DNA from: Anaerolineae bacterium
GTDB lineage: Bacteria; Chloroflexota; Anaerolineae; Aggregatilineales; Ch27
Assembly: GCA_013178165.1 (NCBI GenBank)
Contig: JABLXG010000005.1
Coordinates: 124,001-188,000 of the forward strand
DNA length: 64,000 bases
Reading direction: 5' to 3'
Part shown: piece by piece, positions 16,331 through 36,142 of the stretch
Layout of the letters: each line of letters starts with the position of its first letter
Position numbering within the stretch: position 1 is the first letter of the stretch
Made by a program: the position numbers and the translations under genes
The notes under the pieces: generated by a model
What the model saw: only the letters and a program-made list of their open reading frames with translations
The model's database searches: none
What the model was told of the DNA's origin: nothing

Positions 16331-16425
16331 TCTGGCGCTGCCGCCTGCCGGCTGCTCGACCGGGAGCGGCAGGGCGGTTACACTGAAGGTAGCGCCGCTG
16401 CTCGCTGCCAGTTGAGGGCTGCCTG

Positions 16426-17043: not shown

Positions 17044-17080
17044 CCCGGTCTCCTTGTGCTAATCTTAACTGCATTGCATC

Positions 17081-17110
17081 TTGCTTCTAACCCATCACCC
17101 CCTGTACACT
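17081..17110 (+). promoter_or_regulatory. Promoter of the chitosanase-like gene
   Basis: TTGCTT (17081-17086), 18 bases and TACACT (17105-17110), 32 bases before the ATG at 17142. Confidence 0.55.
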
Positions 17111-17141
17111 GAGATAGTCAACCGGGTAGAAGGGATGCACC

Positions 17142-17864: not shown

Positions 17865-17952
17865 AGCGGCAACAACACAACGCGCCTGTCGCCCGCCGGG
17901 AATCCGCTGGCCGGATGAGCCAGCGGGCCTGTTGTACTAACGTCCGGGCGTC

Positions 17953-19332
17953 TCAGTAGCCCTTACGGTAGACCGGGTCGGTTGTGCTGGCCGTATCGGC
18001 GGGCATGGCGCTATCCTTGCCCAGCACCCGGCGCACAAAGGCCGGCCACCAGTTGACCTGTTCCCCCCGGTCAGCGTACTGCGCCAGCACCTGTTCCGAT
18101 TCGATGGCACATTTCTGCCCCAGAGCGATGAACTGCTCTCGGCTCATGCCGGCAGCGGCTACGCCCCACTTGCGCCCGGTGTGGACGTGCAGGACTTCAT
18201 CAGCCCAGTCGTAATCCTGAAAAAGCCGGGCCAGCGGATCGGCGGCTTCCCCGGTGATTTGCCATTCGTACTTCTTGCCATCGGTGGCCCGCATCAAGCT
18301 CTGCTCGATCGTGTAGAGCACGGCGTGCGCCTCCAGCGGGGAAAGGGCTGTGTTGAGGCGGATGGCAAAGCCGGGGTGCAGCGGAATCTCCCGCCGCCAG
18401 TCGATGCCCAGCCGCTCGAAGTAGACCTCACCCATCATGGCGTGGCGGGCTTCGTCCCAGAGCTGGCGGCACATATCGACGTAATATTGCCAGGGCTGCC
18501 GTTCTGCTTCGGCGATGATCCGGGCCATTGCCTCCGGCACGTCCATTTCCAGCGTACGCTTGCACATCAGGGCCAGCGTTTTCTCATCGGCGGGGATGCC
18601 TTCCGTGCGAGCCACCTCATGCGGCGGAAAGACGAAATTCCACTGCCCGGTGAAACGCTCATCGCGGCGCGGGAAAAAGTCCGGCTGGAAGGGTCGCCTG
18701 GCGCGGGAAGGCGGGAGGGTGACCTCCGGCAGTGGTTCCGCGCCGGAGACGCCCCCGGCCGCGGCCAGGTACGCCTGGACATGGGCGATCCAGGCCGCGG
18801 CGCGGGCCTGCGCCTCCGGCGTATCGGTCAGCGCAGCCAGCGCCGCTCCCCCCCAGGCGACGATGTCTTCCTGCTCCAGGATCAACAGGCGCAACACCCG
18901 CCGCGTCGGATGATCAACCAGGGGGTTAGCGGCGGCATAGTGCTGGCGCAGGGCGGCCAGCAAGGCCGGACGCAATGCGCCATAGACACCGGCGATCTTC
19001 TCCAGCGTGTCCTCCGCCGCCAGGACTTCATCCAGGCAGGCGTCCAGCGCGGTATCCGGGGGAACATCCAGGCGCGGCGGTGGGTTACGCATCTCGCTGA
19101 CCCGCGCCCGGATCAGGGCGGCGTGCTCAGCGTCCAGGTAGGCGTGCAGGCTGAGCGCCTCCTTGACTTCCCACTCCGGCGTGGGGTTCAGCCAGTAGAG
19201 CGCTGCTTCCATCAGGCGTTTGGCGATCCAGGCATAACGCACCAGACGCGCCACAGTGCTATCGACATCCAGGCCGATCCGGGCCGCTTCCTCATAGGTG
19301 CACAGCCCGGCCAGCGGGGGAATTTGCGGCAT
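17953..19332 (-). CDS. Ferritin-like di-metal protein of unknown substrate
   Basis: The 459-residue protein has carboxylate/histidine motifs of the ferritin-like superfamily. In the N-terminal half, L-D-A-E-H-A-A-L. In the C-terminal half, W-D-E-A-R-H-A-M-M-G-E, E-Q-S-L-M and D-W-A-D-E-V-L-H-V-H. The E-x-x-H spacing suggests a di-iron or di-manganese centre. The DEARH element resembles PaaA-like or rubrerythrin-like oxygenases, but I cannot name the subfamily. ATG 19332 is chosen because AAAGGG lies 8 bases upstream; the frame is open to 19383. It is divergent from the mannosidase gene. Confidence 0.7.
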   Translation of the reverse strand: MPQIPPLAGLCTYEEAARIGLDVDSTVARLVRYAWIAKRLMEAALYWLNPTPEWEVKEALSLHAYLDAEHAALIRARVSEMRNPPPRLDVPPDTALDACLDEVLAAEDTLEKIAGVYGALRPALLAALRQHYAAANPLVDHPTRRVLRLLILEQEDIVAWGGAALAALTDTPEAQARAAAWIAHVQAYLAAAGGVSGAEPLPEVTLPPSRARRPFQPDFFPRRDERFTGQWNFVFPPHEVARTEGIPADEKTLALMCKRTLEMDVPEAMARIIAEAERQPWQYYVDMCRQLWDEARHAMMGEVYFERLGIDWRREIPLHPGFAIRLNTALSPLEAHAVLYTIEQSLMRATDGKKYEWQITGEAADPLARLFQDYDWADEVLHVHTGRKWGVAAAGMSREQFIALGQKCAIESEQVLAQYADRGEQVNWWPAFVRRVLGKDSAMPADTASTTDPVYRKGY

Positions 19333-19604
19333 AGCACAGCCCTTTCCGGGACAACCCATCAACTCACGATCGCAGGCTGGCAATCACTCACTGCGCCCGC
19401 CAGAGCCGGGCTGCAGTAATTTACAGGTATTGTATCGGATTTTTGCCGTGCGGGGCCAGCGAAGATAGCGGGGAGGCAGGGAACAGATCGGGGACAGGGA
19501 GTGGACAGCACGGCTGCGCCGGGGCAGACGCCGGTCGCCCGAATCCTCCGAACCATCTACAATAAACCAGTAAAGTACTTCTTCATCTGGAGAGAGCAAA
19601 TCCG

Positions 19605-22103
19605 ATGTTCGACCTCTGGAAGCTGCATGATTTTGATCCCGGCGTGGGGTTGGCCGCTGGCGTTCATAGAATTGATTTCGACGAAACCGGCTGGGTGGAC
19701 GTGCCCGTCCCCGGTGACGTGCACCGCGCTCTTCTCGCCGCTGGCTGGATTCAGGACCCCTTCTACGACCGCAACGAGGATTCCGTCCGCTGGATGGAGG
19801 AGAAGGAATGGTGGTATCGCCTCCGCTTCAACGGCCCGGAGGCCCCGCCCGCCCCCGGTGAGCGCGACCGCCTGATCTTTCACGGGATGGACACCTTTGC
19901 CACCGTCTACCTCAACGGCGAACCGCTGGGCAGCCACCGCAACATGTTCCGCCCCGCCGCCTTTGACGTCAGCGGGGTGCTGCGCTACGGCGCGCCGAAC
20001 ACGCTGGCCGTGCGCTTTGACCCGCCCCTGGCCTGTGTACCGGACGTTTCCAGCGTGGAGCCGTGGGGACCCAACCAGGAGCGCATTTTCATGCGCAAGG
20101 CCCAGTTCGGCTTTGGTTGGGACTGGGGGCCGCGCCTGCCGACCATCGGCCTGTGGCGCCCGGTCGAACTGCGCCGGGAACGGGCGGCGACGCTGCGCGG
20201 CGTGCACTTCCACACCCTGCACCTGACTCCGGCGCGGGACAAAGCCATCGTCGCCGTGCGGGTGGAAGTTGACCGCTTCGCTGCGGAGGGGTCGCTGGGA
20301 GCCGCCATCCGCCTGACCACACCTGACGGCGGCGCAACGGCCCGCTACCCGCTGAATATCGCCGCTGATGAAGCCACCGCCCACCTGACCATCAAGGCCC
20401 CCACCCTGTGGTGGACGCACGACCTGGGCGATCCGGCGCTCTACACGCTGGAAGTCGATCTGCTGGCCGGGGACGCTGTTGTGGACACGTGGCGGGGCCG
20501 CGTTGGCGTCCGTACCGTGGCCCTTGATCAATCCGTCGATACGGCGGAGCCGGGCACGCGCTTCTTCCGCTTTGTGCTCAACGGTGTGCCGATCTTCGCC
20601 AAGGGCGCCAACTGGATCCCCGCCGATTCGTTTGTCGGGGCGATCCCCGCCGAACGGTACGAGATGCTGCTGACCGCCGCCCGCGAGGCGCATATGAACA
20701 TGCTGCGTGTGTGGGGGGGAGGCATCTACGAGCACGACGTTTTCTACGACCTGTGCGATGCGCTGGGCATCCTGATCTGGCAGGACTTCATGTTCTCCTG
20801 CGCCCCGTACCCGGAAGACCTGCCAGACTTCACCGCCGAGGTGGAGGCCGAGGCCGAATACCAGGTGCGGCGGCTGCGCAGCCATCCCTGCCTGGCGCTG
20901 TGGTGTGGCAACAATGAGAACCAGTGGTTGCACGATATGCGCAACTTCGCCACCCCCGGCGTCCCCGTGCCCGGTGCACTGTTCTACCACGATCTGCTGC
21001 CGCGTATCGTGGCCGCGCTGGATGGCGTCACCCCCTACTGGCCGGGCAGCCCCTACGGCGGCAATGACTTCAACAGCCAGGAAGATGGCGACCGCCACAA
21101 CTGGAATGCCTGGCATGGCAACTATGACCGCCGCTTTGGGGAATTGCCCCGCCAGGACACTTCCCCGGAGAGCGTCTCCTACCGCCGCTACGCTGAAGAC
21201 CGGGGCCGTTTCATCAGCGAGTTCGGGTTACACGCCGCGCCCGTCCTGGAGACGCTGCGCCGCGTCATCCCCGAAGATCAGCTTTACCACCACAGCCCGT
21301 CCATGGATCATCACAACAAGGATAACCCCAAGAATAAGGGCGATAACCTGATGGTCTCTGTAACCAGCCTGCCAGCGACGCTGGAGGAGTACATCGACTT
21401 CAGCATGATCGCTCAGGCGGAGGGCCTTAAGTTCGCTATTGAGCACTTCCGCCGTCGCAAGCCGCACTGCGCCGGGACGCTGGTCTGGCAGCTCAACGAC
21501 TGCTGGCCGGTGCTGAGCTGGTCAGTGCTGGACTACTATGGCTTCGGCAAGGCGGGCTACTATGCCGTTCGGCGGGCTTATGCGCCGGTGCTGGCCTCCT
21601 TCCGGGAAAGCGCTGATGGGCTGGAGCTGTGGATCACCAACGATACGCTGGCGGATGTTCAAGAGACGGCCATTGTCCGGCTGGCGACATTCAGCGGGGA
21701 GACCCTGTACGAGGAGACGGTGGGCTTCAGCGTGGCGGCCAACAGCAGCGCCTGTGTAGCCTGCTGGCGCACGGAGCAGCTGCCCGGCGGCCCGGATCGC
21801 TATGTCTCCGTCCGCAAGGATGTGCTCTTCCCGCCCAACCGTCATTTCTTCACGCCGGTCAAGGACCTGCAGCGCGCTACGGCGGAGTTGATGGTGGAGT
21901 TCGACCCGGTCAGCGATCATGAACTGGTGGTCAGCGTCAGCGCCTCGACCTACGCCAGCTTCGTGCACCTGACCGTGCCACACGAGGCCACCCGTTACAG
22001 CGACAACTACTTCGACCTGTTCCCCGGCGAAACGCGCGCAGTCACCATCCGCAATGACGCCGTTGTCCTGACGCCGGAGATGGTCACCGTGCGGGGGCGT
22101 TAG
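19605..22103 (+). CDS. Beta-mannosidase, glycoside hydrolase family 2
   Basis: The 832-residue protein has GH2 architecture: a sugar-binding jelly roll (about 1-170), an Ig-like domain (about 175-285), a TIM barrel (about 290-620) and C-terminal beta domains. The acid/base glutamate lies in C-G-N-N-E-N-Q-W and the nucleophile in I-S-E-F-G. The W-G-G-G-I-Y-E and L-I-W-Q-D-F-M-F motifs are typical of the mannosidase branch. It has no signal peptide, so it should release mannose from short beta-mannosides in the cytoplasm. GGAGAG upstream supports ATG 19605. Confidence 0.95.
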   Translation: MFDLWKLHDFDPGVGLAAGVHRIDFDETGWVDVPVPGDVHRALLAAGWIQDPFYDRNEDSVRWMEEKEWWYRLRFNGPEAPPAPGERDRLIFHGMDTFATVYLNGEPLGSHRNMFRPAAFDVSGVLRYGAPNTLAVRFDPPLACVPDVSSVEPWGPNQERIFMRKAQFGFGWDWGPRLPTIGLWRPVELRRERAATLRGVHFHTLHLTPARDKAIVAVRVEVDRFAAEGSLGAAIRLTTPDGGATARYPLNIAADEATAHLTIKAPTLWWTHDLGDPALYTLEVDLLAGDAVVDTWRGRVGVRTVALDQSVDTAEPGTRFFRFVLNGVPIFAKGANWIPADSFVGAIPAERYEMLLTAAREAHMNMLRVWGGGIYEHDVFYDLCDALGILIWQDFMFSCAPYPEDLPDFTAEVEAEAEYQVRRLRSHPCLALWCGNNENQWLHDMRNFATPGVPVPGALFYHDLLPRIVAALDGVTPYWPGSPYGGNDFNSQEDGDRHNWNAWHGNYDRRFGELPRQDTSPESVSYRRYAEDRGRFISEFGLHAAPVLETLRRVIPEDQLYHHSPSMDHHNKDNPKNKGDNLMVSVTSLPATLEEYIDFSMIAQAEGLKFAIEHFRRRKPHCAGTLVWQLNDCWPVLSWSVLDYYGFGKAGYYAVRRAYAPVLASFRESADGLELWITNDTLADVQETAIVRLATFSGETLYEETVGFSVAANSSACVACWRTEQLPGGPDRYVSVRKDVLFPPNRHFFTPVKDLQRATAELMVEFDPVSDHELVVSVSASTYASFVHLTVPHEATRYSDNYFDLFPGETRAVTIRNDAVVLTPEMVTVRGR

Positions 22104-22150
22104 CGAGCGCATTAAAGCGCCGCGCCGGAGGCAACCCCACTACGACTGCT

Positions 22151-22197
22151 GCCAGTCTCGCCCTGCCATAGCCCTGCCCTGGCGGGGTGAGGCTGGC
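22151..22197. terminator. Bidirectional hairpin between convergent genes
   Basis: A long imperfect stem (GCCAG-x-CTC-x-CCC-x-GCC against its complement) lies between the mannosidase stop and the cdsA stop. It has no clear T tract. Confidence 0.45.
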
Positions 22198-22202
22198 GGT
22201 TG

Positions 22203-23021
22203 CTAAAGAGCACCCGTCTGGAATACGAACCAGACGAGGTAATAGTAGCCGAGCACCGCCGCGACCAGCACGGTATCCAGCCGGTCAAGCATCCCGCCAT
22301 GGCCGGGGATGAGGTGGCTGGAATCTTTGACATGCGCCTGGCGCTTGAAGGCGGACATGCCAAAATCCCCCAGCGGCGTGACAAGGGCGATCAGCAATCC
22401 CAGTGCCAGGCCGTGTCCCGCTGTCAGGCCGGGCAGCGACGGCCCCGCCAGCGCGCCGACGGCCAGGCCGAAGATGGCCGCCGCCGCCACGCCGCCAGCA
22501 TACCCTTCCCAGCTTTTCTTGGGGCTAATCCGGGGGGCCATCTTGTGCTTCCCGAAGGCTGTGCCCACAAAATACGCGCCGGTATCGGCGACAAACGTGC
22601 AGAAAAGCACCAGTAGCGTCCACCACTGCCCATCCGGCAGCAGCCGCAGGAGCAGCAGCCGCGCCCCCGGCCAGCCCAGTAACAGGCCAGCAGCCAGCGT
22701 GATCGAAAAGCTGTTCAGCGGCGTGGCATCTCCCCGCTGGAAGCGGAGCAGCATCAGCGCCAGCGCCAGCAGGATCACCAGCGCCAGTCCAGGCCCCAGC
22801 AGGTCCGGCCAGCGCACCGCGCCCAGGATCACCAGCAGCGCCGCCGCTGCCAGCGCAAACGAGGGCGCGTAACCCTCAAGCCGGGCCAGATGGATCAATT
22901 CCCAGACTCCCCGCGCCAGGAGCAGCACCGCCGCGATCTGGTAGACGGCCCCGCCCGCCAGCACAACCAACACCAGGACGGGCAGGGCCACCACCGCCAC
23001 AAGGGTACGGGTCAGAAGCAT
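22203..23021 (-). CDS. cdsA: Phosphatidate cytidylyltransferase
   Basis: A 272-residue polytopic protein with about eight membrane helices. It has the family motifs V-A-D-T-G-A-Y, the S-P-K-K-S-W-E-G-Y-A-G-G box and the C-terminal P-L-G-D...K-R...K-D-S-S-H-L-I-P-G-H-G-G-M-L-D-R-L-D signature. It makes CDP-diacylglycerol from phosphatidate and CTP for phospholipid synthesis. It is last in frr-uppS-cdsA, 21 bp after uppS. Confidence 0.95.
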   Translation of the reverse strand: MLLTRTLVAVVALPVLVLVVLAGGAVYQIAAVLLLARGVWELIHLARLEGYAPSFALAAAALLVILGAVRWPDLLGPGLALVILLALALMLLRFQRGDATPLNSFSITLAAGLLLGWPGARLLLLRLLPDGQWWTLLVLFCTFVADTGAYFVGTAFGKHKMAPRISPKKSWEGYAGGVAAAAIFGLAVGALAGPSLPGLTAGHGLALGLLIALVTPLGDFGMSAFKRQAHVKDSSHLIPGHGGMLDRLDTVLVAAVLGYYYLVWFVFQTGAL

Positions 23022-23042
23022 AGGTCAGGTTCTATCCGGTCA

Positions 23043-23792
23043 TCAGGGGGCCGACTCTGGCGGGGCCAACGCGCCAAAACGACGCTCGCGCTGACAGTAG
23101 TCGATCAGCGCCTTGCGGAATTCCTCCCGGTCAAAGTCCGGCCATAGCGTGGGCGTGGCATAGTACTCTGCGTAAGCTCCCTGCCACAGCAGGAAGTTGC
23201 TGATGCGCAGTTCGCCGCTGGTACGGATGATCAGGTCAGGGTCGGGCAGGCCTGCGGTATACAGGTAACGGGAGATCACGTCCTCTGTGATCGCCTCAGG
23301 GGGGAGGCCGTCGGCGATGATGCGCCGTACCGCCCGCACAATCTCGTCGCGCCCGCCGTAGTTGAAAGCGATGTTGAGGATCAGGCGGTCATTGTTGCGG
23401 GTCAGTTCGATGGCATGCCGGACTTTCTGCTGCAGCTTAACCGGCAGCCGATCAGGCTCGCCCAGATGGCGCAACTGCACGCCTTCCGCGTTGAGTTCGT
23501 CAAGCTCCCGGTCGATCACGCTCTCCAGGATGTGCAGCAGGGCGCGCACTTCCCAGCGGGGCCGGTTCCAGTTTTCGGTGGAAAAGGCGTAGATCGTCAG
23601 GATCTTGACGCCAAACTCAACCGAGGCGCGGATCACCCGCCGCAGGTTCTCAGTGCCAGCCTCATGACCGGCCCGGCGCGGCAGGCCGCGCGCCGCCGCC
23701 CAGCGCCCGTTGCCATCCATGATGATGGCCACGTGGCGGGGAATATTGTGGGGCAATGGCTGCTCCGGGGTGGTACTGACCTCAGTAACCAC
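23043..23792 (-). CDS. uppS: Isoprenyl transferase (undecaprenyl diphosphate synthase)
   Basis: The 249-residue cis-prenyltransferase has [13 protein letters not shown] (pyrophosphate binding, catalytic Asp), the G-H-E-A-G helix, Y-A-F-S-T-E-N-W, and the C-terminal [12 protein letters not shown] motif. It builds the C55 lipid carrier for peptidoglycan and other wall polymers. It starts 6 bp after frr and shares its promoter. Confidence 0.96.
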
Positions 23793-23798
23793 GCAGGT

Positions 23799-24356
23799 CT
23801 AGACCTCCATCACTTCGTGCTGCTTGCGCTTGCCGATCTCTTCGACCTCGGCAATGTACTTATCGGTGAGTTCCTGAATCTTATCGATGGCCAGGTCGCG
23901 ATCGTTTTCCGAGATCATCTTCTCCCGTTCCATCTCGCGCAGGTCGTCAATGGCGGAACGCCGGACGTTGCGGATGGCGACTTTGGCTTCCTCCATGCGC
24001 TTGCCGACCAGGCGGACCAGTTCCTTACGGCGCTCCTCCGTCAGGGGCGGGAGGTTGAGGCGGATGTTGGTGCCATCGTTATTGGGGGTCAGGCCCAGGT
24101 CAGAGGCCAGGATCGCCTTTTCGATCAGCTTGAGCGTCTTGGGGTCATAAGGCCGGATGGCGATCTGCTGAGGTTCGGGGATGGAGATACCGGCCAGTTG
24201 GTAGAGGGGTGTGGGAATATCGTAGTAGTTGACCATGATCTTCTCGACCAGGGCGGCGCTGGCGCGCCCGGTCCGCAGCCCGGCCAGGTCCTCTTCCAGG
24301 ACGGCAAGCGCCGATTTCATGCGTTGCTCGGCATCATGTTGCACTTCCTTGATCAT
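23799..24356 (-). CDS. frr: Ribosome-recycling factor
   Basis: The start at 24356 gives 185 residues, the exact usual RRF length, and follows a good GGAG site; an 8-residue upstream extension is rejected. Motifs include [24 protein letters not shown] and the C-terminal helix [15 protein letters not shown]. It splits post-termination ribosomes with EF-G. In many bacteria frr follows pyrH; here pyrH is about 16 kb away on the other strand. Confidence 0.97.
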
Positions 24357-24447
24357 GGTACTCTCTCCTTCAACCGGCATGACGCATTACCGGCGGATGG
24401 CGGGCAGCCGCCGGCAATTAACAGGCACATGTTCCTCAGGCAAACCG

Positions 24448-24476
24448 ATTGTCACCGATCCAGTTTGCCTTGTCAA
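24448..24476 (-). promoter_or_regulatory. Promoter of frr-uppS-cdsA
   Basis: Minus-strand TTGACA (24471-24476), 17 bases and GACAAT (24448-24453), giving a leader of about 85 bases before frr. Confidence 0.75.
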
Positions 24477-24677
24477 CCGCGCTTATGCTGCCCGGTTCCG
24501 CGTGTCCTGCCCGGCCTCTGACTGCCGTTCACTATACAACCGTCCGCGGTGTTTTCCTCACTGCGGCGCTCCTGACGGCTTCCGGGCTGCTGCCACGCAC
24601 TGCCGGTCTGGCCTCCCAGGGGGGATTCCGGCTATACTATCGACAGTACAACTGACCCAGCGAAAGGATCTGCGCGC

Positions 24678-24974
24678 ATGACAATCAGCCGCGAGCAGGT
24701 GGAACACATCGCCGAACTGGCCCGGCTGGCCCTGACCGAGGAGGAGATCACGCTTTACGCCGAACAGCTTTCCAGCATCCTGGCCTATGTGGAACAGTTG
24801 CGGGAGCTGGATACGGCGGCCATCCCGCCGACGGCGTCTGTGTTGCCTCTCAGCAATGTCCTGCGCCCGGATGAGATCGCGCCATCACTGCCCACCGCTG
24901 AAGCGCTGGCCAACGCGCCCGATGCCGCCGACGGGCAATTCCGCGTAGCGGCGGTGCTGGACGAAAGCCCCTAG
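24678..24974 (+). CDS. gatC: Glutamyl-tRNA(Gln)/aspartyl-tRNA(Asn) amidotransferase subunit C
   Basis: A 98-residue protein with the family start [15 protein letters not shown], the [10 protein letters not shown] helix and the L-R-P-D-E segment. It stabilises the GatAB complex that converts misacylated Glu-tRNA(Gln). gatA and gatB are not adjacent, so the complex is encoded in separate places. A TATACT at 24633-24638 may be its -10, with a poor -35. Confidence 0.94.
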
Positions 24975-25055
24975 CCAGGGTATAGACCCGCCGCCAGATC
25001 GCGCCGGCGGCTTCCCGGCTTGCCGGGAGAAGTCGTGTGGGGGGAGAAGAAGACG

Positions 25056-25874
25056 ATGTCTGAACAGGCTCGCATCCTGATCGTGGATACCGCCGCCGAC
25101 GTGATCCAGCCGCTGACGGCATACTTCCGGGAACGCGGGGCGGAGGTGATCGTCGCCCATGACGCGGAAAGCGCCCTGCAGGAAGCCGCCCGCCACCCTG
25201 ATATCCTGTTACTGGCGGCCACCCTGGGCGATACTGACGGCCTGGAGATCTTCCGCCGTCTGCGCCAGAACCCGCGCCTGGCACACCTGCCGATCATGTT
25301 CATCGCCGACTACCGCGACACCCTGCGCCGCAACCAGCTCCTGGCGGAGGGCGCCGATGATGTGATCGCCCGGCCCTTCGATGTCGAACTGGTCGGTCTG
25401 CGGGTGCGCAACGCCATCCAGCGCGCCCGCCGCGAGGATGTGACCGACACGGTCACCGAGTTACCCACTGGCTTGTTGCTGGCGGAAAAGCTCAAGGAAC
25501 TGGATGACCGGCCAGACTGGTGCGTGCTGACCGTGCGCCTGCTCCACTTTGACGCCTTCCGCGATCGCTACGACTTCATCGCTGGCAACGAGGTGCTGCG
25601 CTATACGGCGGCCACGCTCAACGCCATTGCGGCACGCTTCGCCGGGGATGAAGCCTTTGTCGGCTATGCCAGCGAAGCGACCTACGTGTTGCTGGCTCCG
25701 CGCGCCCATTGCGCCGTGATCAGCGCCGCCATCCAGGCGGAGCTACCCGCCGGTCTGCAACAGTTTTACACATTCACCGAACGCGAGCAGGGCTATGTGA
25801 TGGTTGATGACCGGCGCGGTCATGCCGAACAACGCCCGCTGATGCAAATCCGGCTCCAGGAAGGCCGACCCTGA
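25056..25874 (+). CDS. Degenerate receiver plus degenerate GGDEF protein
   Basis: A 272-residue protein. Residues 6-120 follow a receiver fold (R-I-L-I-V-D-T..., P-I-M-F-I-A-D, the K-like loop then G-A-D-D-V-I-A-R-P-F). However, the phospho-acceptor position reads L-L-L-A-A-T-L instead of L-L-D-x-x-L, and the normal lysine is replaced by R in A-R-P-F. Residues about 140-255 look like a diguanylate-cyclase fold without a usable GGDEF loop (A-S-E-A-T where it should be). It is probably an unphosphorylated binding or scaffold protein. Start ATG 25056 is preferred over the upstream GTG because GGGGAG lies before it. Confidence 0.75.
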   Translation: MSEQARILIVDTAADVIQPLTAYFRERGAEVIVAHDAESALQEAARHPDILLLAATLGDTDGLEIFRRLRQNPRLAHLPIMFIADYRDTLRRNQLLAEGADDVIARPFDVELVGLRVRNAIQRARREDVTDTVTELPTGLLLAEKLKELDDRPDWCVLTVRLLHFDAFRDRYDFIAGNEVLRYTAATLNAIAARFAGDEAFVGYASEATYVLLAPRAHCAVISAAIQAELPAGLQQFYTFTEREQGYVMVDDRRGHAEQRPLMQIRLQEGRP

Positions 25875-25911
25875 TCCCTGGCCGCCAGCCGTGCCACGCT
25901 CACCGGCAGGT

Positions 25912-26148
25912 TCAGGACGGTTGCGGCTCCTCAACCGGGGCAAAATGGCGGAGATACTCCTCAACAGTCAGGCCATCGTCATCGTGGTACCACGCTTCGT
26001 GGTCGGACCAGACCTGACAGGCATGGCATTGCGTGACCTTCCAGACTTTGCCACAGGCAGGGCAAACACCGTGCGTGGTGAAGGTATGCCACTGATGCCC
26101 GCAGCTGCAGGCCCAGCGGGCATTGGGCGGCGGGCGCCAGTCACATTG
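25912..26148 (-). pseudogene. 5'-truncated zinc-ribbon protein gene
   Basis: On the minus strand, a frame ending at TGA 25912-25914 reads C-D-W-R-P-P-P-N-A-R-W-A-C-S-C-G-H-Q-W, then C-P-A-C-G-K, then C-H-A-C-Q-V-W-S-D-H-E-A-W-Y, and an acidic tail. Its three C-x(1-2)-C pairs are typical of a zinc ribbon. The frame has no start; upstream it hits a stop inside a transposase fragment in another frame at about 26145. The original 5' end was evidently replaced by the transposon end. Confidence 0.65.
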
Positions 26149-26277
26149 CCCAGGGCCTCAGCAAAGGTCAACATCTTCAGCCGGTTCTCGGCCAGCTTAC
26201 GCTCACTGGTGGCGGCCATGGTATACTCTCCTTCGCCTTTGATATCTCACTTTGTCCGCGAAGAAGATTTACTGTAC
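26145..26277 (-). mobile_element. IS481-like element remnant 1 (5' end only)
   Basis: From a terminal repeat TGTACAGT... at 26277 (reading left) there is a 59-base leader, GGAGAG, and an ATG at 26219. The ATG opens about 25 residues, A-A-T-S-E-R-K-L-A-E-N-R-L-K-M-L then F-A-E-A-L-G-N-V, matching the helix-turn-helix N-terminus of IS481/IS3-type transposases. The rest is missing, and the frame runs into the truncated zinc-ribbon gene. The leader aligns base by base with that of remnant 2. Confidence 0.65.
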
Positions 26278-26379
26278 ACATAATATTCACATCACGTCGT
26301 TCTTGACTTTCTCAATAATTTGGACTAGTATTGTCATATCTAGTTTTATTTCTAGTTTTATTACCAAAAAGGAAGGCCT

Positions 26380-26760
26380 ATGCCTATGTCTGCGCCGATT
26401 GTTTTCATCAGCCGTAACAAGATCAAAGAAGGCAAAGCCGATGTATTCAGGAAACACTATCCAAGACAGTATCCAACCGATATTTGATGGCAAACCCGGC
26501 ACGCTGGCTCAACTTGGTTGCGAAAACGAAAAAGGTACAAAGTTTACCGTCATTCGAGTCTTTTTTCCAATGCAGATGCGCTAGACCAACAAATCCAGGG
26601 CGCAGATGAACGGTCAAAGAAAGCGTATGAATATATCGAGCCAACTGCGATTGAGATTTTCGGAATGCCCAATCTCGCCACAGATAAAGAAGATAGCGGG
26701 ATCAGGGATTACTGTGAGCATCAGCCCAAATCATTCGGGCGGCTTTATTCGATAGACTAA
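26380..26760 (+). pseudogene. Frameshifted ABM-like (antibiotic biosynthesis monooxygenase-fold) gene
   Basis: GGAAGG precedes ATG 26380, which opens A-P-I-V-F-I-S-R-N-K-I-K-E-G-K and F-R-K-H-Y, then hits TGA at 26485. Homology continues in the next frame (P-I-F-D-G-K-P-G-T-L-A-Q-L, E-K-G-T-K-F-T-V-I-R-V-F) and returns to the first frame after a T6 run near 26560 (F-S-N-A-D-A-L-D, then Q-G-A-D-E-R-S-K-K-A-Y-E-Y-I-E-P), ending at TAA about 26760. Two compensating indels thus break a roughly 127-codon dimeric alpha/beta-barrel gene. Mutation is likely; an assembly error at the homopolymer is possible. Confidence 0.75.
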
Positions 26761-26773
26761 AAAGGAGATAGTG

Positions 26774-27205
26774 ATGGCTCTACAATTTGAATCTTCAGAA
26801 GTAATTGACCGACCAATCGACAAAGTATTTCGCTTTTACGCTGTAGAGCATGTTCGAAATCACCCCCGCTGGGATTCAGATATCGAACTCTGGCTGGATT
26901 CTGACATTCCCATTGGCATTGGAACGATCATCCACAGGCGTAACAAACGCAGTGGAACTCCTGTTGAAGGAACTATGAAGGTCGTTGAATTCGAACCCAA
27001 CCGCATGCTCGCAATGGAAATCCATGATGGTCCTGCTATCATGTATGGTAGGACAACATTTGAAGCGATTAATGAGAACCAAACCAGACTCACTACCATT
27101 ATTGATATACCGTGGATGGATGAAAAAACAGACAAGACTTTTATGAACAACCGATTGGCACAAGCCTCTCAAATCAGAAAACAACTGATGGAATCTGAGT
27201 TGTAA
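26774..27205 (+). CDS. SRPBCC (START-like) family protein
   Basis: The 143-residue protein begins F-E-S-S-E-V-I-D-R-P-I-D-K-V-F-R-F-Y, the usual N-terminal strand and helix of SRPBCC ligand-binding proteins. It continues with G-T-M-K-V-V-E-F-E-P and a C-terminal helix. AAGGAG 6 bases before ATG 26774 is excellent. It follows the ABM pseudogene by 13 bp, so the two were probably an operon. Its base composition is far more AT-rich than the flanking chromosome. It lies between two IS remnants, which suggests acquisition by transfer. The ligand is unknown. Confidence 0.82.
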   Translation: MALQFESSEVIDRPIDKVFRFYAVEHVRNHPRWDSDIELWLDSDIPIGIGTIIHRRNKRSGTPVEGTMKVVEFEPNRMLAMEIHDGPAIMYGRTTFEAINENQTRLTTIIDIPWMDEKTDKTFMNNRLAQASQIRKQLMESEL

Positions 27206-27207
27206 GG

Positions 27208-27425
27208 TGTACAGTTAACCTTCTAGGCGGACAGCTTGACTGAAACGTTCGACCGTCTGGATGGGACATGCCACGCTGGCGACAGGCTTCACGTACGTTG
27301 CCCAACTGCTCGGCCAGCTCCAGCACACTCAACCGGTGACGTGCCAGTTTGTCTTCTGCGTTCATGGTCTCTCCTCTCCTTCTACTGATCTATACTCCCT
27401 GTTCGGAGAGAAAGTTTAGAATACA
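27208..27425 (-). mobile_element. IS481-like element remnant 2 (internally deleted)
   Basis: Ends are TGTA-type imperfect inverted repeats at 27208-27224 and 27409-27425 (12 of 17 positions match). On the minus strand a leader with AAGGAGAGG precedes ATG 27365 and 30-odd residues, K-L-A-R-H-R-L-S-V-L-E-L-A-E-Q-L-G-N-V then R-E-A-C-R-Q-R-G-M-S, an HTH typical of IS481/IS3 transposases. The coding part stops there and is joined to about 60 bases of the 3' end. The element ends 2 bases from the stop codon of the next gene. Confidence 0.65.
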
Positions 27426-27427
27426 GC

Positions 27428-29320
27428 CTAGTTGTTGGCAACATCCTGGCAGTCCTGACGGTAAATCTCAATAGTTCGCCCCATTACATTCAGTATGTGG
27501 CAAAGCTCAAATGCATGGGAGTCCATGTACTGTTGGATAGCAGGGGTTATCTCCATCTCGTTTAGCACATAAACGACCACACTGGGCTGAATGACTTCCC
27601 AGACTGCTTCAGGAGTACTGACCTGAAAACGCTGTTGTGCAGCATGCTCCGCTCCAGAGGTTACCAACTGATGATGTGGAAATGCCCATACCATACTCAC
27701 CGGCCCAAGAATGATATCGTCTTGGCCGAGATAAGGTTCGAGCGGTTCGGCAAGTTCTTCATAGAAGTATGGTTCTCGTTCACCGCTAGCTATCCAGCGG
27801 ATAACATTATCCCATTCGATAAACGTCCCGGAACTCTGCGCGAGCAGTGCCACTACCAACACTGTACCAGCCAGTGCAGCACGCAGATTTTTGCCACGCG
27901 AGATACCTGGGCTGCTAAACCCATCGAGGATCAATGTGCCTGCCGGAACCATGAGCAATACAGCGTAGATACTCGGATAACCTTGGGTATCTAGCAGAAA
28001 TGCCCCAGCAAAAATACATGCCAGTATAGTCAGGTAACGGCAATCAGAGGCTCGCCTGCGCCACAACAGGTAGAGTAATCCCCCCCACACCATCGGACGC
28101 TCCAGAAAGGGCCATTCCAGAAACTGCCTGATGATTGGCCTGTCCCAGTTCCAGCGACTACTGACCAGATTGCTTAGGTACACCTCTAGTCCGCCAATCG
28201 ACCAGATGTTAAAAACAAGATAGATGGTCGTGCCCCCTAGCGCACCAGCGGCAAAAACAAAGATAGGCAACGGCGATTCCCGAGTCCAGGTATGAGTCTG
28301 GCGTGCGCGACGCCAGATTGCGATGACTTCCAGCAGGTAGAACAGACTCAGCCCTACTGCAAAGACAATGCCCGCTGCATGCAACTGCATGGAGAGTGTC
28401 GCCAGTAATCCGCATAATAGATGCAAGACCAGCCCAACATGCCGTTTTTCTGTATCTCGCGCTTTGAGCGCGATGAAAACAAGGATGATTCCGGCTGCGG
28501 TCAGTTGATGATCAGGTCTGTAGTCATAAGCAGGAATAATCCGTCCAAGAATCGCGACTGTCGTACTGATTGCGGCTGCATGACGTCCGTAAAGGTGATT
28601 GCTGACAAGCCATACGCCAGCGAAGGCAATCACGTACATACTGAAATTCCATAGCCGCCCAATATACAGCCTGTAGCCTAAGCGCTCGAGGAGCCAGCCG
28701 TAGGCTGGAACGCTCCATCCTAGACCGGGCGCAATCTTGTATGGTGTCATATACCAGGTACGAGCATAGACCCCTCCCTGAAGCCAATATGTGGTTGCCA
28801 TATCAGCCCAATGACCTTCATCCGGTGAAAACTTGAGTTTTGTTGCACCAGTGATCGCCAACGGTAATAATAACAGCAATCCAACTATCAAAAGTAGCCA
28901 CATCCAGCGGTCAAAACGGATCACCCGATCAGGCCGGGTGAAAGTTAAAACTGCCGTGAATGCCCACCAATTGTACGAAAGATACACCAGAAATTGTTCC
29001 GCAATTGACGTATGCCACAAGATGAATAATACGATTCCACTAATAGCAATGCTCGTGACTACAACACCAAGAGACAACCCGTTCAAAAAGGTAATCACAC
29101 GCTTCTGTGCGATTACCAGTGCTATCCAGCCCAATGTAATTATCAAACTGGCTAGTAGAACAAGTCCGTAACGTACACTATAACGCCCTAGAACTGCAGG
29201 GCTGTCGCTCTGCTGTTCCCACAGCAATGGGAGCACCAGCGCTTGTAAGGCCAGACCTATAATCAAATATCTGCCGGGGGATAGTCTGGTGAGAATAGCG
29301 TCCCGATATTCACCCAACAT
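27428..29320 (-). CDS. GT-C type membrane glycosyltransferase-like protein
   Basis: A 630-residue polytopic protein with about 12 membrane helices and a soluble C-terminal stretch. After the first helices there is an acidic loop F-S-P-D-E-G-H-W-A-D-M-A, the D-E motif of ArnT/dolichyl-phosphate-mannose-type (GT-C) glycosyltransferases. It should transfer a sugar from a polyprenyl carrier on the outer face of the membrane; acceptor unknown. Its composition is clearly lower in GC than its neighbours, consistent with transfer. The C-terminus abuts IS remnant 2, so some C-terminal residues may have been lost. Confidence 0.75.
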   Translation of the reverse strand: MLGEYRDAILTRLSPGRYLIIGLALQALVLPLLWEQQSDSPAVLGRYSVRYGLVLLASLIITLGWIALVIAQKRVITFLNGLSLGVVVTSIAISGIVLFILWHTSIAEQFLVYLSYNWWAFTAVLTFTRPDRVIRFDRWMWLLLIVGLLLLLPLAITGATKLKFSPDEGHWADMATTYWLQGGVYARTWYMTPYKIAPGLGWSVPAYGWLLERLGYRLYIGRLWNFSMYVIAFAGVWLVSNHLYGRHAAAISTTVAILGRIIPAYDYRPDHQLTAAGIILVFIALKARDTEKRHVGLVLHLLCGLLATLSMQLHAAGIVFAVGLSLFYLLEVIAIWRRARQTHTWTRESPLPIFVFAAGALGGTTIYLVFNIWSIGGLEVYLSNLVSSRWNWDRPIIRQFLEWPFLERPMVWGGLLYLLWRRRASDCRYLTILACIFAGAFLLDTQGYPSIYAVLLMVPAGTLILDGFSSPGISRGKNLRAALAGTVLVVALLAQSSGTFIEWDNVIRWIASGEREPYFYEELAEPLEPYLGQDDIILGPVSMVWAFPHHQLVTSGAEHAAQQRFQVSTPEAVWEVIQPSVVVYVLNEMEITPAIQQYMDSHAFELCHILNVMGRTIEIYRQDCQDVANN

Positions 29321-29612
29321 GAATATCCCTTACCTCACACAACGGGTTGCGCACTGCCCCTACAAAGTTGGACACAAAAACACAAGTTTTGTCAGGTCAA
29401 AGACGTACATAGACCCAAGTATTCATCCAGGTGGATGTGAATCTGTGGGTGAACCATCTGCCGTGGGGGGCATACGAAGTAGGTAGGTTCCGGCTGGCTA
29501 AAGCTTAGCTTATACAGCTTAACCCGGCAAAACGCAACCCTGCCGCGAACAGCAGCAGAATCACCATGAAGCCCAATGCCGCCCTATGTTCCTCTGCTGG
29601 CCCATCGCATCC

Positions 29613-30632
29613 TCACGGGGCAACCATCGGCACGGCACGCAGCATCAGGAACATGTACAGGGCGAACAGCAGCGCCAGCGCCGTCATCGACACGCCAAAG
29701 ACGCCGGGCAGGTCGGCGGCGGAGAGGATCGGCTCTGCGCCGGGGCGCTCCTCCCCGGCCAGTTCCAGTGCGATCTGCTCCTGCCGCCCGCGCAGGTCGT
29801 GGTACAGGATGGTGAAATAGATCACCCCCAGCGGCAACACCAGCATCTCAACAACCATCGTCATGATCTGGGCCAGAACCAGCGACTCCGGGGCCAGCAG
29901 GATCGCCAGGAAGTCCAGCGGCACGCTCAACAGGAAGCGCAGGGCGTACAGGGCCAGAGTCATGGCGAAGATCAGCCAGATGCGCTGTTTGCCAAAGCTC
30001 CAGGCGCGGCGCAGCCGCCTGCTCAGTGACCCCTCCTCCAGCGCCAGGGCTGGCGCCAGCAGCGGCACCCAGGCCAGATACGTGTAGATGGTCAATCCCA
30101 GCCCCAGCACGCCTACACAGAACATCGCGCCCAGGATACTGCCCACCAGCAGCGCGATCAGCACCAGCCCGGCCAGCAGATGGCCCGCGCCCAGAGCGCG
30201 CAACCGTGGGCCAATCCTCCCCAGCGCAGCGGCCAGTGATACTGCCCCGCCCTGGTAGGCCGCCGAAGCCATCAACGCGCCGATGCCGCCGCCGATCACC
30301 CCCAGCACCACGATCTGGATGAACAGCTGCACCACCACCTGCTGCAACATCAGCAAGCTGTTCTGCAGCAGGTTGTCCATGGCCGATTGCAGCAGCGCCG
30401 GATTGCCGGGCATCTGCCCGCTTTCCAGCGATCCCATGATCTGTTCCAGCGCCGCCGGATCAAATGACGGCTGGGGCAGGATGGCTGCCAGCGCCAGATT
30501 GATCAGCACCAGCGGCGCTACCGCCAGCAGACCCAGCACCAGCCACTGCGGGAAATACTGGAAGTACAGGCGTACCGTCCAGCGGATCATCTCCCGTGGG
30601 GTGAGGGGGCGGAAAAGCGACATCAGGGACAT
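29613..30632 (-). CDS. Polytopic membrane protein of unknown function
   Basis: The 339-residue protein has about six membrane segments, many of them glycine- and leucine-rich. A polar N-terminus reads M-S-L-F-R-P-L-T-P-R-E-M-I-R-W, and a large loop near residues 60-85 holds the P-A-A-L-E-Q-I-M-G stretch. It resembles the general layout of DUF975/GlpQ-membrane-domain proteins, but I cannot assign it. GGAG before ATG 30632 sets the start. An extended -10 (TGC-TATACT, minus strand, 30692-30697) lies upstream. Confidence 0.7.
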   Translation of the reverse strand: MSLMSLFRPLTPREMIRWTVRLYFQYFPQWLVLGLLAVAPLVLINLALAAILPQPSFDPAALEQIMGSLESGQMPGNPALLQSAMDNLLQNSLLMLQQVVVQLFIQIVVLGVIGGGIGALMASAAYQGGAVSLAAALGRIGPRLRALGAGHLLAGLVLIALLVGSILGAMFCVGVLGLGLTIYTYLAWVPLLAPALALEEGSLSRRLRRAWSFGKQRIWLIFAMTLALYALRFLLSVPLDFLAILLAPESLVLAQIMTMVVEMLVLPLGVIYFTILYHDLRGRQEQIALELAGEERPGAEPILSAADLPGVFGVSMTALALLFALYMFLMLRAVPMVAP

Positions 30633-30691
30633 ACCACGCTCCTGCTTGGATGTGCGGCAGGGCACATCGGAAAACCGACACTATCCCGGCC

Positions 30692-30700
30692 AGTATAGCA
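30692..30700 (-). promoter_or_regulatory. Extended -10 promoter for the 29613-30632 gene
   Basis: Minus-strand TGC followed directly by TATACT (30692-30697). The -35 is weak. Confidence 0.45.
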
Positions 30701-30901
30701 CAGCCGGCAGCTTTCAGCGGTTAGCTGGTCAGGTCAACCCTGGCAACGAAGCGGATCGCACCCGGCCCATCCCTCCTGGCTGTCTCCTGCTGTCGCTGGC
30801 GGCGCGGCTGCCAATCCCTCTGCTCGCTGTCGCCAGGACTCGTCCGTCTTGATCCCAGCCCAACTTGCCGCCAGCCGGAGCCGCGGCTACAATCCCCGCC
30901 C

Positions 30902-32851
30902 ATGGCATTCCACGGATTGATCACCATCTTCATCTTCGGGGCGGTGGCGCTGGGCGCGGGGGCGATGCTGGCCCCGGCGCTCCCGCCATCCGCCGCGCCG
31001 ATCCGCCAGCGAACGGCTCCCCGCGTCGGCCTGGCGGCGGCGCTGGCCCTGGCTGTGGTGATCGCGGGGGCACTGTTCCTGGCAGCACTCTTTGGCTGGG
31101 ATACCCTGACGATCGACTACCTGTGGTTCGCCCTGCTGATCGGGATTTTTCTGGCCGGTACGCTGGCGCGGGGGACTTCCCGCGGGGAGGCCGCCGGGCT
31201 GCGGGATGCTGATCTGGGCTGGCCGGGCGCGCGGGAACTGGCTTTCTTCGCCCTGGCGCTGGCGCTCTTCGCCGCGCCGCTGCTGGTGTTGCCCGTCCCA
31301 CTGGATACCGATGCGCAGGGGTTTGGCTACCTGGCGCTGATGCTGCGCGAAAGCGGTTCGCTGACCACGCTGGCCCCCTTCCACCCGGAGATCGAATACC
31401 TGTACTCGCCCGGCTTCCCAGCGTTAGCGGCATACCTCAGCCAGCGGCTGGGCATCGGCCTGCACACGATCCAGTTCGCGGCGGCGGCGGTGCTGGCCCT
31501 GCTACTGATCTGGCTGCTGTGGGACTTTGGCAACGAGATCGAGGATGTGCTGGACCCGGACGCTGCCGCGCAGGAGCGCCCGGCACGGCACACAGGCGGG
31601 ATGATGGCGCTGATGGGCCTGCTGGGGACAGGTCTGCTGACCGCCTACATGGATTCGCACTACACCACGATCATGGCCCTGGTCTTCGCCCTGGCCTTTC
31701 TGCTATTCGTAACACGCTATTTACGCGGCGGGCGGTGGGCGGACGCGCTGGCGGCGGCGGCGACACTGGCCGCCGTGCCGCTGACCCACCCCGACACGAC
31801 GATCATCCTGATGCTGGGTTATGTCCCCTGGCTGGGCACGATCTGGCTGGCCCGGCCCCGACCAGCGTTACACCGCTGGCTGGTCATGGCGGCGGGAATC
31901 CCTCTGCTGGCCCTGATCGGTATTCTGCCCTGGCTGGCACGGATCGCGCCGTTGCTGGGCAGCGGCATCGCCTCCCCGTTTGAAATCGACCCCGGCCACT
32001 GGCGCGTGCTGGTCTTCATGCACGGCGGGCTGATCCTCCCGCTGGCGCTGGGCGGGGCGGTCATCGCGGCCCGGCGGCGTGCCCCGCTGGACCTGTTGAT
32101 GCTCGGCTGGCTGCTGTTAGTCATCGACTTCAGCACGGTCGGGCTGCTGGAGCGCGTTACATTTGGCCTGCTGGACCCGCTGCTCAGGTACGATTACCCG
32201 TTCAGCATCGCCTGGCACGGGCCGATCATCCCCTATGCTTACCTGAGCGCGTCGGCTGTCCTGTGGCTGCTGCGGCGGATCGGCTGGGGGCGTGTGCGGC
32301 GCGCCCTGGGCCGGCTGGCCTGGCCGGCGCTGGCCCTGACAGCGGCGGGCATCGCGCTGGGGATCGCCTTTGCCGAGCCGCTGCGCGACTTCAGCAAGGG
32401 CAGGATCGGCTTCTTTGGCGCGTTCGCCTCCCACGCCGATGTGCAGGCAATGACCTGGCTACGGGAGAACACCCCGCCGGAGACACGCATCCTGAACTTC
32501 CCCGGCCCGCAGGAAGGCGACTGGGCGCCGATCATCAGCGAGCGGGACACAATCTACTTCCGGATGCAGCCGTTCTTCCGCCAGAGCGAGCAGGCGGAGG
32601 CCGAGCAGGCGGCGCTATACGGTTTCTGGCAAGACCCGGCGGATCCGGCCTGGGCGGCGCAGCTGCGCGAGGCCGGCGTGACCTATGTGCTGGTGCCGCA
32701 GGTGGTGGGGAACCCGGCAGCGTTTGAGCGGATGTGGCGCTGGCGGCAGCCGTTCGCCTGGGAACTACAGACGCGTTCGACGGTTGCGGAGGCGCCTTAC
32801 CTGACGCTGGCAGCAGATTTCGACGGCGCGCAGGTGTGGCAGCTGAAGTAG
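30902..32851 (+). CDS. Large polytopic membrane protein, GT-C-like
   Basis: A 649-residue protein with about 13 membrane helices. An early extracytoplasmic loop carries P-L-D-T-D-A-Q-G-F-G-Y and later E-I-E-Y-L-Y-S-P-G-F-P, an acidic pattern reminiscent of GT-C glycosyltransferases. Its roughly 120-residue C-terminus is soluble (T-W-L-R-E-N-T-P-P-E-T-R-I-L-N-F). The C-terminal domain resembles that of other membrane glycosyltransferases. I see no confirmed family name. It converges on elp3 with a 16-bp gap. Confidence 0.7.
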   Translation: MAFHGLITIFIFGAVALGAGAMLAPALPPSAAPIRQRTAPRVGLAAALALAVVIAGALFLAALFGWDTLTIDYLWFALLIGIFLAGTLARGTSRGEAAGLRDADLGWPGARELAFFALALALFAAPLLVLPVPLDTDAQGFGYLALMLRESGSLTTLAPFHPEIEYLYSPGFPALAAYLSQRLGIGLHTIQFAAAAVLALLLIWLLWDFGNEIEDVLDPDAAAQERPARHTGGMMALMGLLGTGLLTAYMDSHYTTIMALVFALAFLLFVTRYLRGGRWADALAAAATLAAVPLTHPDTTIILMLGYVPWLGTIWLARPRPALHRWLVMAAGIPLLALIGILPWLARIAPLLGSGIASPFEIDPGHWRVLVFMHGGLILPLALGGAVIAARRRAPLDLLMLGWLLLVIDFSTVGLLERVTFGLLDPLLRYDYPFSIAWHGPIIPYAYLSASAVLWLLRRIGWGRVRRALGRLAWPALALTAAGIALGIAFAEPLRDFSKGRIGFFGAFASHADVQAMTWLRENTPPETRILNFPGPQEGDWAPIISERDTIYFRMQPFFRQSEQAEAEQAALYGFWQDPADPAWAAQLREAGVTYVLVPQVVGNPAAFERMWRWRQPFAWELQTRSTVAEAPYLTLAADFDGAQVWQLK

Positions 32852-32867
32852 AGGCTGCGCCGCCCGA

Positions 32868-34736
32868 TCACGGCACGAATTCGCCCGGCTCCACTAGCGC
32901 CCGCACCTGATAGAGATCGCCATCCACAAAGCCGCGCGCGCGGTAGTATTCCCGCGTGCCCACTGCCGAGATCACGGCCAGGCGGCGGTAGCCCCGCGCC
33001 CGCGCGATCGCCGCAGCTCGCTCGATCAGCGCCGTGCCCAGGCCAATGTGCTGAGCTTTGCCCGGCGCATTCTGCCCGATTGCCACTGACTGGCCGTAAA
33101 CGTGCACCTCGCGGATCATGGCCGCGTCGCGCAATTCGGCGGTGAGCGGCGGCTGCTCCGGCAGGCTCAGGCGTAGAAAGGCGGCGATGTCCCGCCCGGC
33201 GGTGATGTACTGCAGGAAGACCTCCTGGCTGCCCCCGGCGGCATACCACAGCTCATCCAGATGCAATTCCTCCGGCGCAACCTGCCGCCCCCGGATCTCC
33301 CGCCCGCGAATGTCCGGGCTGCGTTCGCCGCTGGCGGCCAGCGCCTGTTCCACCAGCTGGCGGAAGTTGGTCAGCCGGTTGCCGACAACGATCTCGGTCG
33401 AGGGGATATCGCGGACGACACGGGTCAGGCGGCAGTACTCCGGCGTGCGGCGGAAGCAGGCCGTCAGCACATCCAGCAGTTCCTCGTGGGTGTAAGGCTG
33501 CCATTCCCCCGCCTCGTAATAGCGCATCAATTCCGCGCTCTCCAGCAGCGAACACGGGTAGATCTTCAGTTCGTCCGGGCGGATGGCCGGGTCGTCAAAC
33601 AGGCGGGTGTAATCGGCTTTGTCCGCCTCCGGATCGGAGCCATAGAGGTTAGGCATCCAGTGACCGTGAATCTTGAACCCGGCCTGGCGCAGCAGTGTGA
33701 TCGCTCGCCGGGTAGCCGCTACATCGTGCCCGCGCCGGTTGAGGCGCAACACCTCGTCATTCAGGCTCTGGATGCCGATCTGTACCTTGGTGCCGCCCAG
33801 TCGCCGAATGCGCAGGGCTTCCTCGACGGTGAGGTAATCGGGCCGCGTTTCCACCACCAGCCCCACACAGCGGCAGGCGGCGGTCTCATTACGGCGCTGG
33901 ACAGCGGCCAACTCATCCCAGGTAGCGTATTCATCCAGGACCGTGCGCTCCCTTGCGCCGCTGACGATGGCCGCTGCCGCCGAACGGGAACGGGCCAGTT
34001 CCGCGCGGTAAATATCCTGCACGATCTGGTTGTAGGTGCGGGAGAGTTCCCGCCCGTCCACGCTAACGCCGACGGCCTGGTTGGCCGGGTGAAGCTGCGA
34101 CGCGGCACGCAGGGCGGCTTCCACCGCGTCAAACTCGCGATCAGCGTATTCCGGGCCGCGGCTGAAGTCGTTGAGCGCGTCGAAAATACGCTTGACGAAC
34201 CAGATCTGGTAGTTCTCCGGGTAGAACGACCACGTCCCGCCCAGGATGATCAGCTCGATCTTGGCGGTGGGATGGCCGATGCTGGTATAGGCCCGCAGAC
34301 GGCTGATCGTCTGCAGGTAGGGGTCAAAGCTGTTCTGCGCAGCCCGCAGCGCACCCGGTTCCCCGGTGACGTAGCTCTTGGGCATCCGCACGTCGTTCGG
34401 GCAGAAGATGCACTCTCCGGGGCAGGGGAACGGCTTGGTCAGGACGGTCACCGGCGTCACGCCGGAATGGGTGCGCACCGGCTTGAGCCGGATGCGCTCC
34501 AGCACGGCGGGATCGAAGGGCGGCAGGCCATCTGTCCCGGCGAAGGCGCGATAGGCGCGGACGATGTCTTCCCGGCGGAACAGGTCGCGGCCATCGCGGG
34601 GATAGCGGTGCAGGACGCGGCTGATCGTCTGCGGCGTGATCTGCGGAGCGGCGATTAACTCGCGCAGGATGGCAAGCAGCGGCTCGCGGTAAGCGTCCAG
34701 ATCGAGGTCGGGGCGGTAGTGGCGCTTGGGTGACAT
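32868..34736 (-). CDS. Bacterial Elp3, tRNA U34 carboxymethyl-modification radical SAM/acetyltransferase
   Basis: The 622-residue protein has a radical SAM core with the cluster motif C105-P-G-E-C109-I-F-C112 and the Elp3-specific S-Y-V-T-G-E-P-G-A segment. At the C-terminus is a GNAT domain (Q-H-I-G-L-G-T-A-L-I-E-R, then R-G-F). Elp3 puts a carboxymethyl group on wobble uridine of tRNA from acetyl-CoA. Bacterial homologues such as the one from Dehalococcoides are structurally known. Here it acts without other Elongator subunits, as expected in bacteria. It is convergent with the 30902 membrane gene. Confidence 0.95.
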   Translation of the reverse strand: MSPKRHYRPDLDLDAYREPLLAILRELIAAPQITPQTISRVLHRYPRDGRDLFRREDIVRAYRAFAGTDGLPPFDPAVLERIRLKPVRTHSGVTPVTVLTKPFPCPGECIFCPNDVRMPKSYVTGEPGALRAAQNSFDPYLQTISRLRAYTSIGHPTAKIELIILGGTWSFYPENYQIWFVKRIFDALNDFSRGPEYADREFDAVEAALRAASQLHPANQAVGVSVDGRELSRTYNQIVQDIYRAELARSRSAAAAIVSGARERTVLDEYATWDELAAVQRRNETAACRCVGLVVETRPDYLTVEEALRIRRLGGTKVQIGIQSLNDEVLRLNRRGHDVAATRRAITLLRQAGFKIHGHWMPNLYGSDPEADKADYTRLFDDPAIRPDELKIYPCSLLESAELMRYYEAGEWQPYTHEELLDVLTACFRRTPEYCRLTRVVRDIPSTEIVVGNRLTNFRQLVEQALAASGERSPDIRGREIRGRQVAPEELHLDELWYAAGGSQEVFLQYITAGRDIAAFLRLSLPEQPPLTAELRDAAMIREVHVYGQSVAIGQNAPGKAQHIGLGTALIERAAAIARARGYRRLAVISAVGTREYYRARGFVDGDLYQVRALVEPGEFVP

Positions 34737-34845
34737 GGCGGCAATGACTCCTCCCGTGCCGGGCTGAAGGAGTATTGTACCATGTCAGGGGCTTCTGAAT
34801 CAGCCCGATTGTCTTTGCCCCAGGCCCCCACGTGGGCGAAAGAAA

Positions 34846-34877
34846 CACGCTCCGGCGGGGCGATCCGCCAGAGCGTG
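34846..34877 (-). terminator. Intrinsic terminator of the OsmC gene
   Basis: A 12-13 base stem (CACGCTC-x-GGCGG against CCGCC-x-GAGCGTG) is followed on the minus strand by TTTCTTT, starting 24 bases after the stop. Confidence 0.75.
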
Positions 34878-34900
34878 GGCGCTACAAGAACAACCACCTT

Positions 34901-35341: not shown

Positions 35342-35463
35342 GATTCTCTCCATCTCCTTGCCGGAGGGCGCCGCGCGGCCAGCCCTCCGGAATAGCTCTT
35401 ACCCGCAAAATGCAGATCATAATGGCGCCTGTGCGCCTGCCATCATACCGCCTCGGAGTGCGT

Positions 35464-36054: not shown

Positions 36055-36142
36055 GGTTGAGCGTCCCCCCGGCAGGAATCCAGTTGCGCACTTGAGGCGT
36101 TGCGGCGGGCGGGCCGGGGCCGCCGTTGCCCCGCGTGATGAC

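Follow-up and report, generated by a model that had tools for sequence, protein, structure and literature searches.

In the window, that is, the whole 64,000-nucleotide stretch of DNA that was analysed, which belongs to a 4.19-Mb draft genome of 52 contigs, a 3.27-kb AT-rich segment (26146–29418) took the place of the start of a zinc-ribbon gene and most of a PMT-type gene. The locus is very probably the scar of a decayed mobile element in a Chloroflexota chromosome, in which a foreign ABM-SRPBCC gene pair is bracketed by IS481 ends of one subtype, A, and the outer parts of the IS copies are lost. The reference for the site is L046, the locus collinear with the window in the sister genome G001, which is of the same genus. 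The features of the region are listed below.

25912–26145, minus strand: remnant of a zinc-ribbon gene with its 5' end lost; the sister alignment stops at 26145
26141–26145, no strand: left junction, TCACA (TGTGA on the minus strand), common to the IS end and the zinc-ribbon gene in a three-way comparison of the window, L046 and L091
26146–26278, minus strand: 5' end of an IS481 of subtype A, with IRL TGTACAGTAAATCTTCTTCGCGGACA, leader and first transposase codons; its tip, 26278, faces the cargo
26279–27207, plus strand: foreign AT-rich cargo, 929 bp, GC 0.425
26380–26760, plus strand: ABM-like gene with several frameshifts, recognised by aligning its DNA to the intact ABM-SRPBCC operon of L081
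26774–27205, plus strand: intact SRPBCC gene, 143 aa, weak Polyketide_cyc2 match
27208–27271, minus strand: 3' end of an IS481 of subtype A, with IRR TGTACAGTTAACCTTCTAGGCGGACAG, encoding ACPIQTVERFSQAVRLEG*; its tip, 27208, faces the cargo
27265–27425, minus strand: 5' end of an IS481 of subtype B, with IRL TGTATTCTAAACTTTCTCTCCGAACAG, leader and transposase N-terminus
27428–29320, minus strand: 630-aa multi-pass membrane gene, glycosyltransferase-like, GC 0.50, GC3 0.51
29321–29418, no strand: AT-rich DNA (98 bp) that separates the 630-aa gene from host sequence and reaches the right junction
29419–29560, minus strand: residual 5' end of the host PMT-type gene, aligning with L046:7738-7600; the gene is intact in the sister

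Host DNA replaced at the site

Positions 16421–26145 are collinear with L046 at 91% DNA identity in the locus alignment, and 29419–36058 are collinear with it at 87–91% identity where alignable. The match runs up to 26145, stops there exactly and picks up again at 29419, leaving 26146–29418 without a counterpart in L046, so that collinear flanks enclose differing content in the two genomes. The related genome with an intact zinc-ribbon gene that the original prediction had named as confirmation of an insertion was found in this sister, where the open reading frame (L046:9320-9583) encodes 87 aa with the N-terminus MHPVYIACPRCDW. The reading frame in the window has no in-frame start codon and has lost the first Cys, the missing part being MHPVYIACPR in the sister; the 5' end of the gene has indeed been replaced by the left IS remnant, as had been proposed. 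On the other side the sister carries a PMT-type glycosyltransferase gene of about 570 aa (L046:7547-9259; PMT_2 match, 1.6e-10). Because the zinc-ribbon and PMT-type genes are both intact in the sister and the flanks are collinear, 26146–29418 replaced host DNA, and the event is a replacement of about 1.6 kb rather than a clean insertion. The pentamer at 26141–26145 is likely to be a short-homology joining point, judging from the three aligned loci.

The island had been drawn to end at the right IS remnant, which is too short. The replaced segment goes on for 2 kb past that point, to 29418, and holds a third gene, the 630-aa gene at 27428–29320. This gene is foreign to the locus; it is absent from genomes G001–G004, its homologues within the order are only 36–40% identical, and no close donor (E <= 1e-150) was present among the 396 class-level genomes searched. 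A search of the window's own genome for a further copy of 29300–29570 returned only the region itself.

IS481 ends of two subtypes

The two IS481-like remnants, 26146–26278 and 27208–27425, are both read on the minus strand, as originally predicted. Of the transposase only N- and C-terminal scraps are present in the window, and the remnants are assigned to IS481 because an intact relative in the same genome (L027) passes the family model NF033577 with 261.5 bits against a cut-off of 224; an intact IS481 relative in this genome also has Pfam rve and rve_3 matches. The tips at 26278, 27208 and 27425 match the ends of complete or multi-copy elements and carry the TGT...ACA inverted repeats. A subtype A element would combine the IRL TGTACAGTAAATCTTC with the C-terminus ACPIQTV..FSQA, and TGTATTCTAAAC is the contrasting B-type IRL. 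In L027 and L103, two complete B-like elements, the ending is NAYLETVRQEA; the right remnant has the A-type ending QTVxxFSQAxxxEG, and the ACPIQTVERFSQAVRLEG ending occurs in G035 and G001 as well. No A element was read from end to end, nor was any element that carries the exact B-type IRL, and no complete B element was found among the 396 class-level genomes searched. Both kinds of A-type end in G035 lie at contig breaks, the 5' ends running out where contigs finish and the 3' end standing where one begins, as would be seen if they belonged to a single multi-copy IS.

Copies in G035 match the left remnant, which has lost its outer end, at 93% identity, and a fragment in G001 matches it at 88%. 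The last 64 bases of the right remnant agree with A-type 3' ends of G035 and G001 at 86–88% identity, and its B-type 5' part (about 155 bases) is 81% identical to a B fragment in G001 and 77% identical to an intact IS481 of the window's own genome. The switch from B to A falls at GCATGTC (27265–27271), a heptamer present in both types. The right remnant, whose leader and transposase N-terminus the original prediction had taken as homologous to those of the left one, thus appears to be a chimera of a subtype B 5' end and a subtype A 3' end, a reading that rests on the two ends separately. A simple internally deleted copy of one IS was rejected, as the 3' end differs in subtype from the intact elements that match the 5' end, and membership in a repeated short-element family was rejected because the own genome holds no other copy. 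No target site duplication flanks 27208–27425 (TAAGG and GCCTA are unlike), which is expected if the remnant is a chimera. Neither remnant recurs whole elsewhere in the assembly, though 58 bp of the left one are present again.

The likeness that had been proposed between the two remnants survives at their tips. The sequence TGTACAGTNAANCTTCT occurs exactly twice in the window, at 26262–26278 (minus) and 27208–27224 (plus), against a chance expectation of 0.28 with up to 3 mismatches allowed. Both occurrences are cargo-facing tips of subtype A in direct orientation, the pattern expected of an A-cargo-A unit after decay, and each is just one end of an IS copy. The piece of the right remnant that matches is its 3' end, and the proposed homology of leaders and transposase N-termini does not hold, these being of one IS481 subtype on the left and another on the right. 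Aligned locally as DNA, the two remnants score 23 (shuffle mean 16, maximum 29); the likeness of their 5' ends is not clearly above that of shuffled sequence, and the protein resemblance is at family level only.

Other IS481 fragments were observed in the two genomes. On contig C28 of the sister (L091), A- and B-type fragments are fused in opposite orientation, another A/B recombination. G001 has a 5.5-kb stretch that likewise lies between A-type ends in direct orientation and carries other genes (among them one for a TPR/CHAT-like protein); the ABM-SRPBCC cargo is not in it. On contig C15 of the window's own genome, a short IS481-derived element of ~256 bp with both ends is present as near-identical copies 5 kb apart (L026:2919-3172 and L026:7888-8143), suggesting fairly recent movement of a MITE-like derivative, and one copy abuts a 58-bp A-type IS end.

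The ABM-SRPBCC cargo and its relatives

The cargo agrees with its earlier description as AT-rich DNA with a broken ABM-like gene and an intact SRPBCC gene. The compositional check suggested for it gave a divided answer: GC is low (0.425 vs 0.637 across the window), but the tetranucleotide usage of the island, corrected for base composition, is ordinary and lies within the range of the window, so tetranucleotide bias does not discriminate as proof of foreign origin. A second AT-rich stretch of the window (43900–45500, GC down to 0.49) contains a 405-aa gene, nuclease-like by eye, and adjoins a GTP-cyclohydrolase-like gene.

An ABM-like gene followed by an SRPBCC gene is found in Chloroflexota loci L077, L080, L081 and L083, and the intact ABM-like protein from L077 is similar to PF03992, with a score below the curated cut-off. 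In most loci read (L076, L078, L080, L081 and L083) a second ABM-like gene comes after SRPBCC. Homology of the window to L076 and L081 ends at 27207, one base before the IS tip, which lies in the short gap after SRPBCC where the second ABM follows in other genomes; from these alignments, 27207/27208 looks like a genuine IS insertion point. Across L076–L083 the ABM-SRPBCC-ABM cluster recurs in Chloroflexota, and L076 has an IS4-like transposase gene in the first-ABM position.

The SRPBCC gene is 94% identical in DNA to that of L076, from a groundwater Chloroflexi genome, vs 78% to the sister's copy. The nearest relative found for the cargo is thus in another Chloroflexota lineage, which points to non-vertical acquisition. 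The cargo is present once in its own genome. The SRPBCC copy of the sister has other flanks and a different position (L047:8390-9870), next to remnants of IS982 and IS481; it lies there in an insert of ~1.3 kb with 81-bp direct repeats on each side (90% identical) and scraps of IS982 and IS481. A single copy of the 81-bp repeat on contig C26 of the window's genome (L070) represents the site without the sister's insert. In the same genome a 904-bp IS982-family element is present in copies that are 99.9% identical (L071 and L072), and this element has therefore probably been active recently. The simplest reading is that the SRPBCC gene was acquired separately in the two sisters, with only moderate tree support and no fork at the strict threshold. 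That the ABM-SRPBCC pair is a recurrently mobilised Chloroflexota passenger, picked up independently by two sister species at distinct loci, in each case set among IS remnants, and here on a true IS481 composite transposon, is a speculative and rather unlikely extension.

Proposed history and comparison with known systems

In the history that we favor, an A-type IS481 would have inserted after SRPBCC and another before ABM, giving A-cargo-A. The bracketed pair would have arrived as a composite transposon or inside a larger foreign segment. The left outer IS part would then have been lost by short-homology joining to the zinc-ribbon gene at TGTGA, and the right one by short-homology joining to an IS481 of subtype B at GCATGTC. 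Replacement of the left outer part by the zinc-ribbon gene and of the right by the B-type 5' end means that no outer ends with a target duplication are present, and the remains therefore fit the composite and the separate-landing routes alike. With neither a complete transposase nor any outer end left, the unit can no longer move on its own. Against this history, an A-cargo-A unit accounts for neither the 630-aa gene nor the final 98 bp. The original picture of a decayed transposon that had brought in two genes is borne out as to the insertion, the foreign cargo and the A tips in direct orientation; no outer ends or target duplications survive, and the picture was mistaken as to the N-termini, the extent and the completeness.

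Movement of A-cargo-A as one composite transposon is plausible. Its strict form, a sub-case of the favored history in which the unit entered this site whole through its outer ends and then decayed, would explain the ends of the same subtype in direct orientation facing the cargo, the foreign nature of that cargo, and the missing second ABM gene, expected past the right IS tip and absent as if left behind. With outer ends and target duplications gone, no second copy of the unit in its own genome, and host DNA replaced together with 2 kb more foreign DNA, unlike clean transposition, we hold this form only tentatively. The other sub-case has roughly even chances: the ABM-SRPBCC DNA came otherwise, for example when a larger foreign piece recombined into the chromosome, and was then hit separately by two A copies and one B copy, with deletions following. 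The further foreign gene in the island is consistent with this route, as are the fused A and B fragments in G001 and the sister's SRPBCC gene, which lies among IS982/IS481 remnants at its other site and indicates a tendency of such DNA to accumulate IS copies; it would then, however, be a coincidence that two insertions of one subtype, oriented alike, ended up on either side of a two-gene cluster.

Two readings outside the favored history are both highly improbable. If the AT-rich genes were old residents of the locus that the sister lost, the presence of an SRPBCC gene in the sister would be natural, but that gene is elsewhere and has 78% DNA identity, against 87–91% for the flanks, the residual 5' end of the sister's PMT gene persists at 29419–29560, and the locus comparison already contradicts vertical inheritance. 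Unrelated DNA wrongly joined at IS sequences is conceivable in a draft of 52 contigs; against such an artefact, the host DNA to the left and right is collinear with that of the sister, and neither remnant offers a whole second copy in the assembly.

The decayed A-bracketed scar shares with the IS481 family (NCBIfam NF033577) the TGT...ACA inverted repeats and the N-terminal helix-turn-helix of the transposase, and differs in consisting of end fragments only, one of them apparently chimeric. An IS481-family transposon with cargo, TnRErm46, is known from Rhodococcus equi (PMC6794481). IS481-type ends are associated with cargo genes in both, but TnRErm46 is active, has one intact transposase and is marked by NCTAGN direct repeats, whereas the island has neither an intact transposase nor a direct repeat. 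Like composite transposons with two IS copies, it has IS ends of the same subtype that bracket cargo in direct orientation; unlike them, it has no outer ends or target duplications left, and its movement as a unit is putative. The Chloroflexota ABM-SRPBCC(-ABM) clusters (L077, L080, L081 and L083) agree with it in gene order, spacing and sequence, whereas in the window ABM1 is broken and ABM2 is absent, with an IS end in its place. The locus is an ordinary, well-resolved case of common genome decay, not a new kind of element, and it leaves the general view of transposons unchanged. Its value lies in a nearly complete history at one locus, with a donor-like operon, a base-exact IS end, the host site before replacement and two putative short-homology joins, and it illustrates the fixation of foreign genes and the decay of IS elements in an uncultured Chloroflexota lineage.
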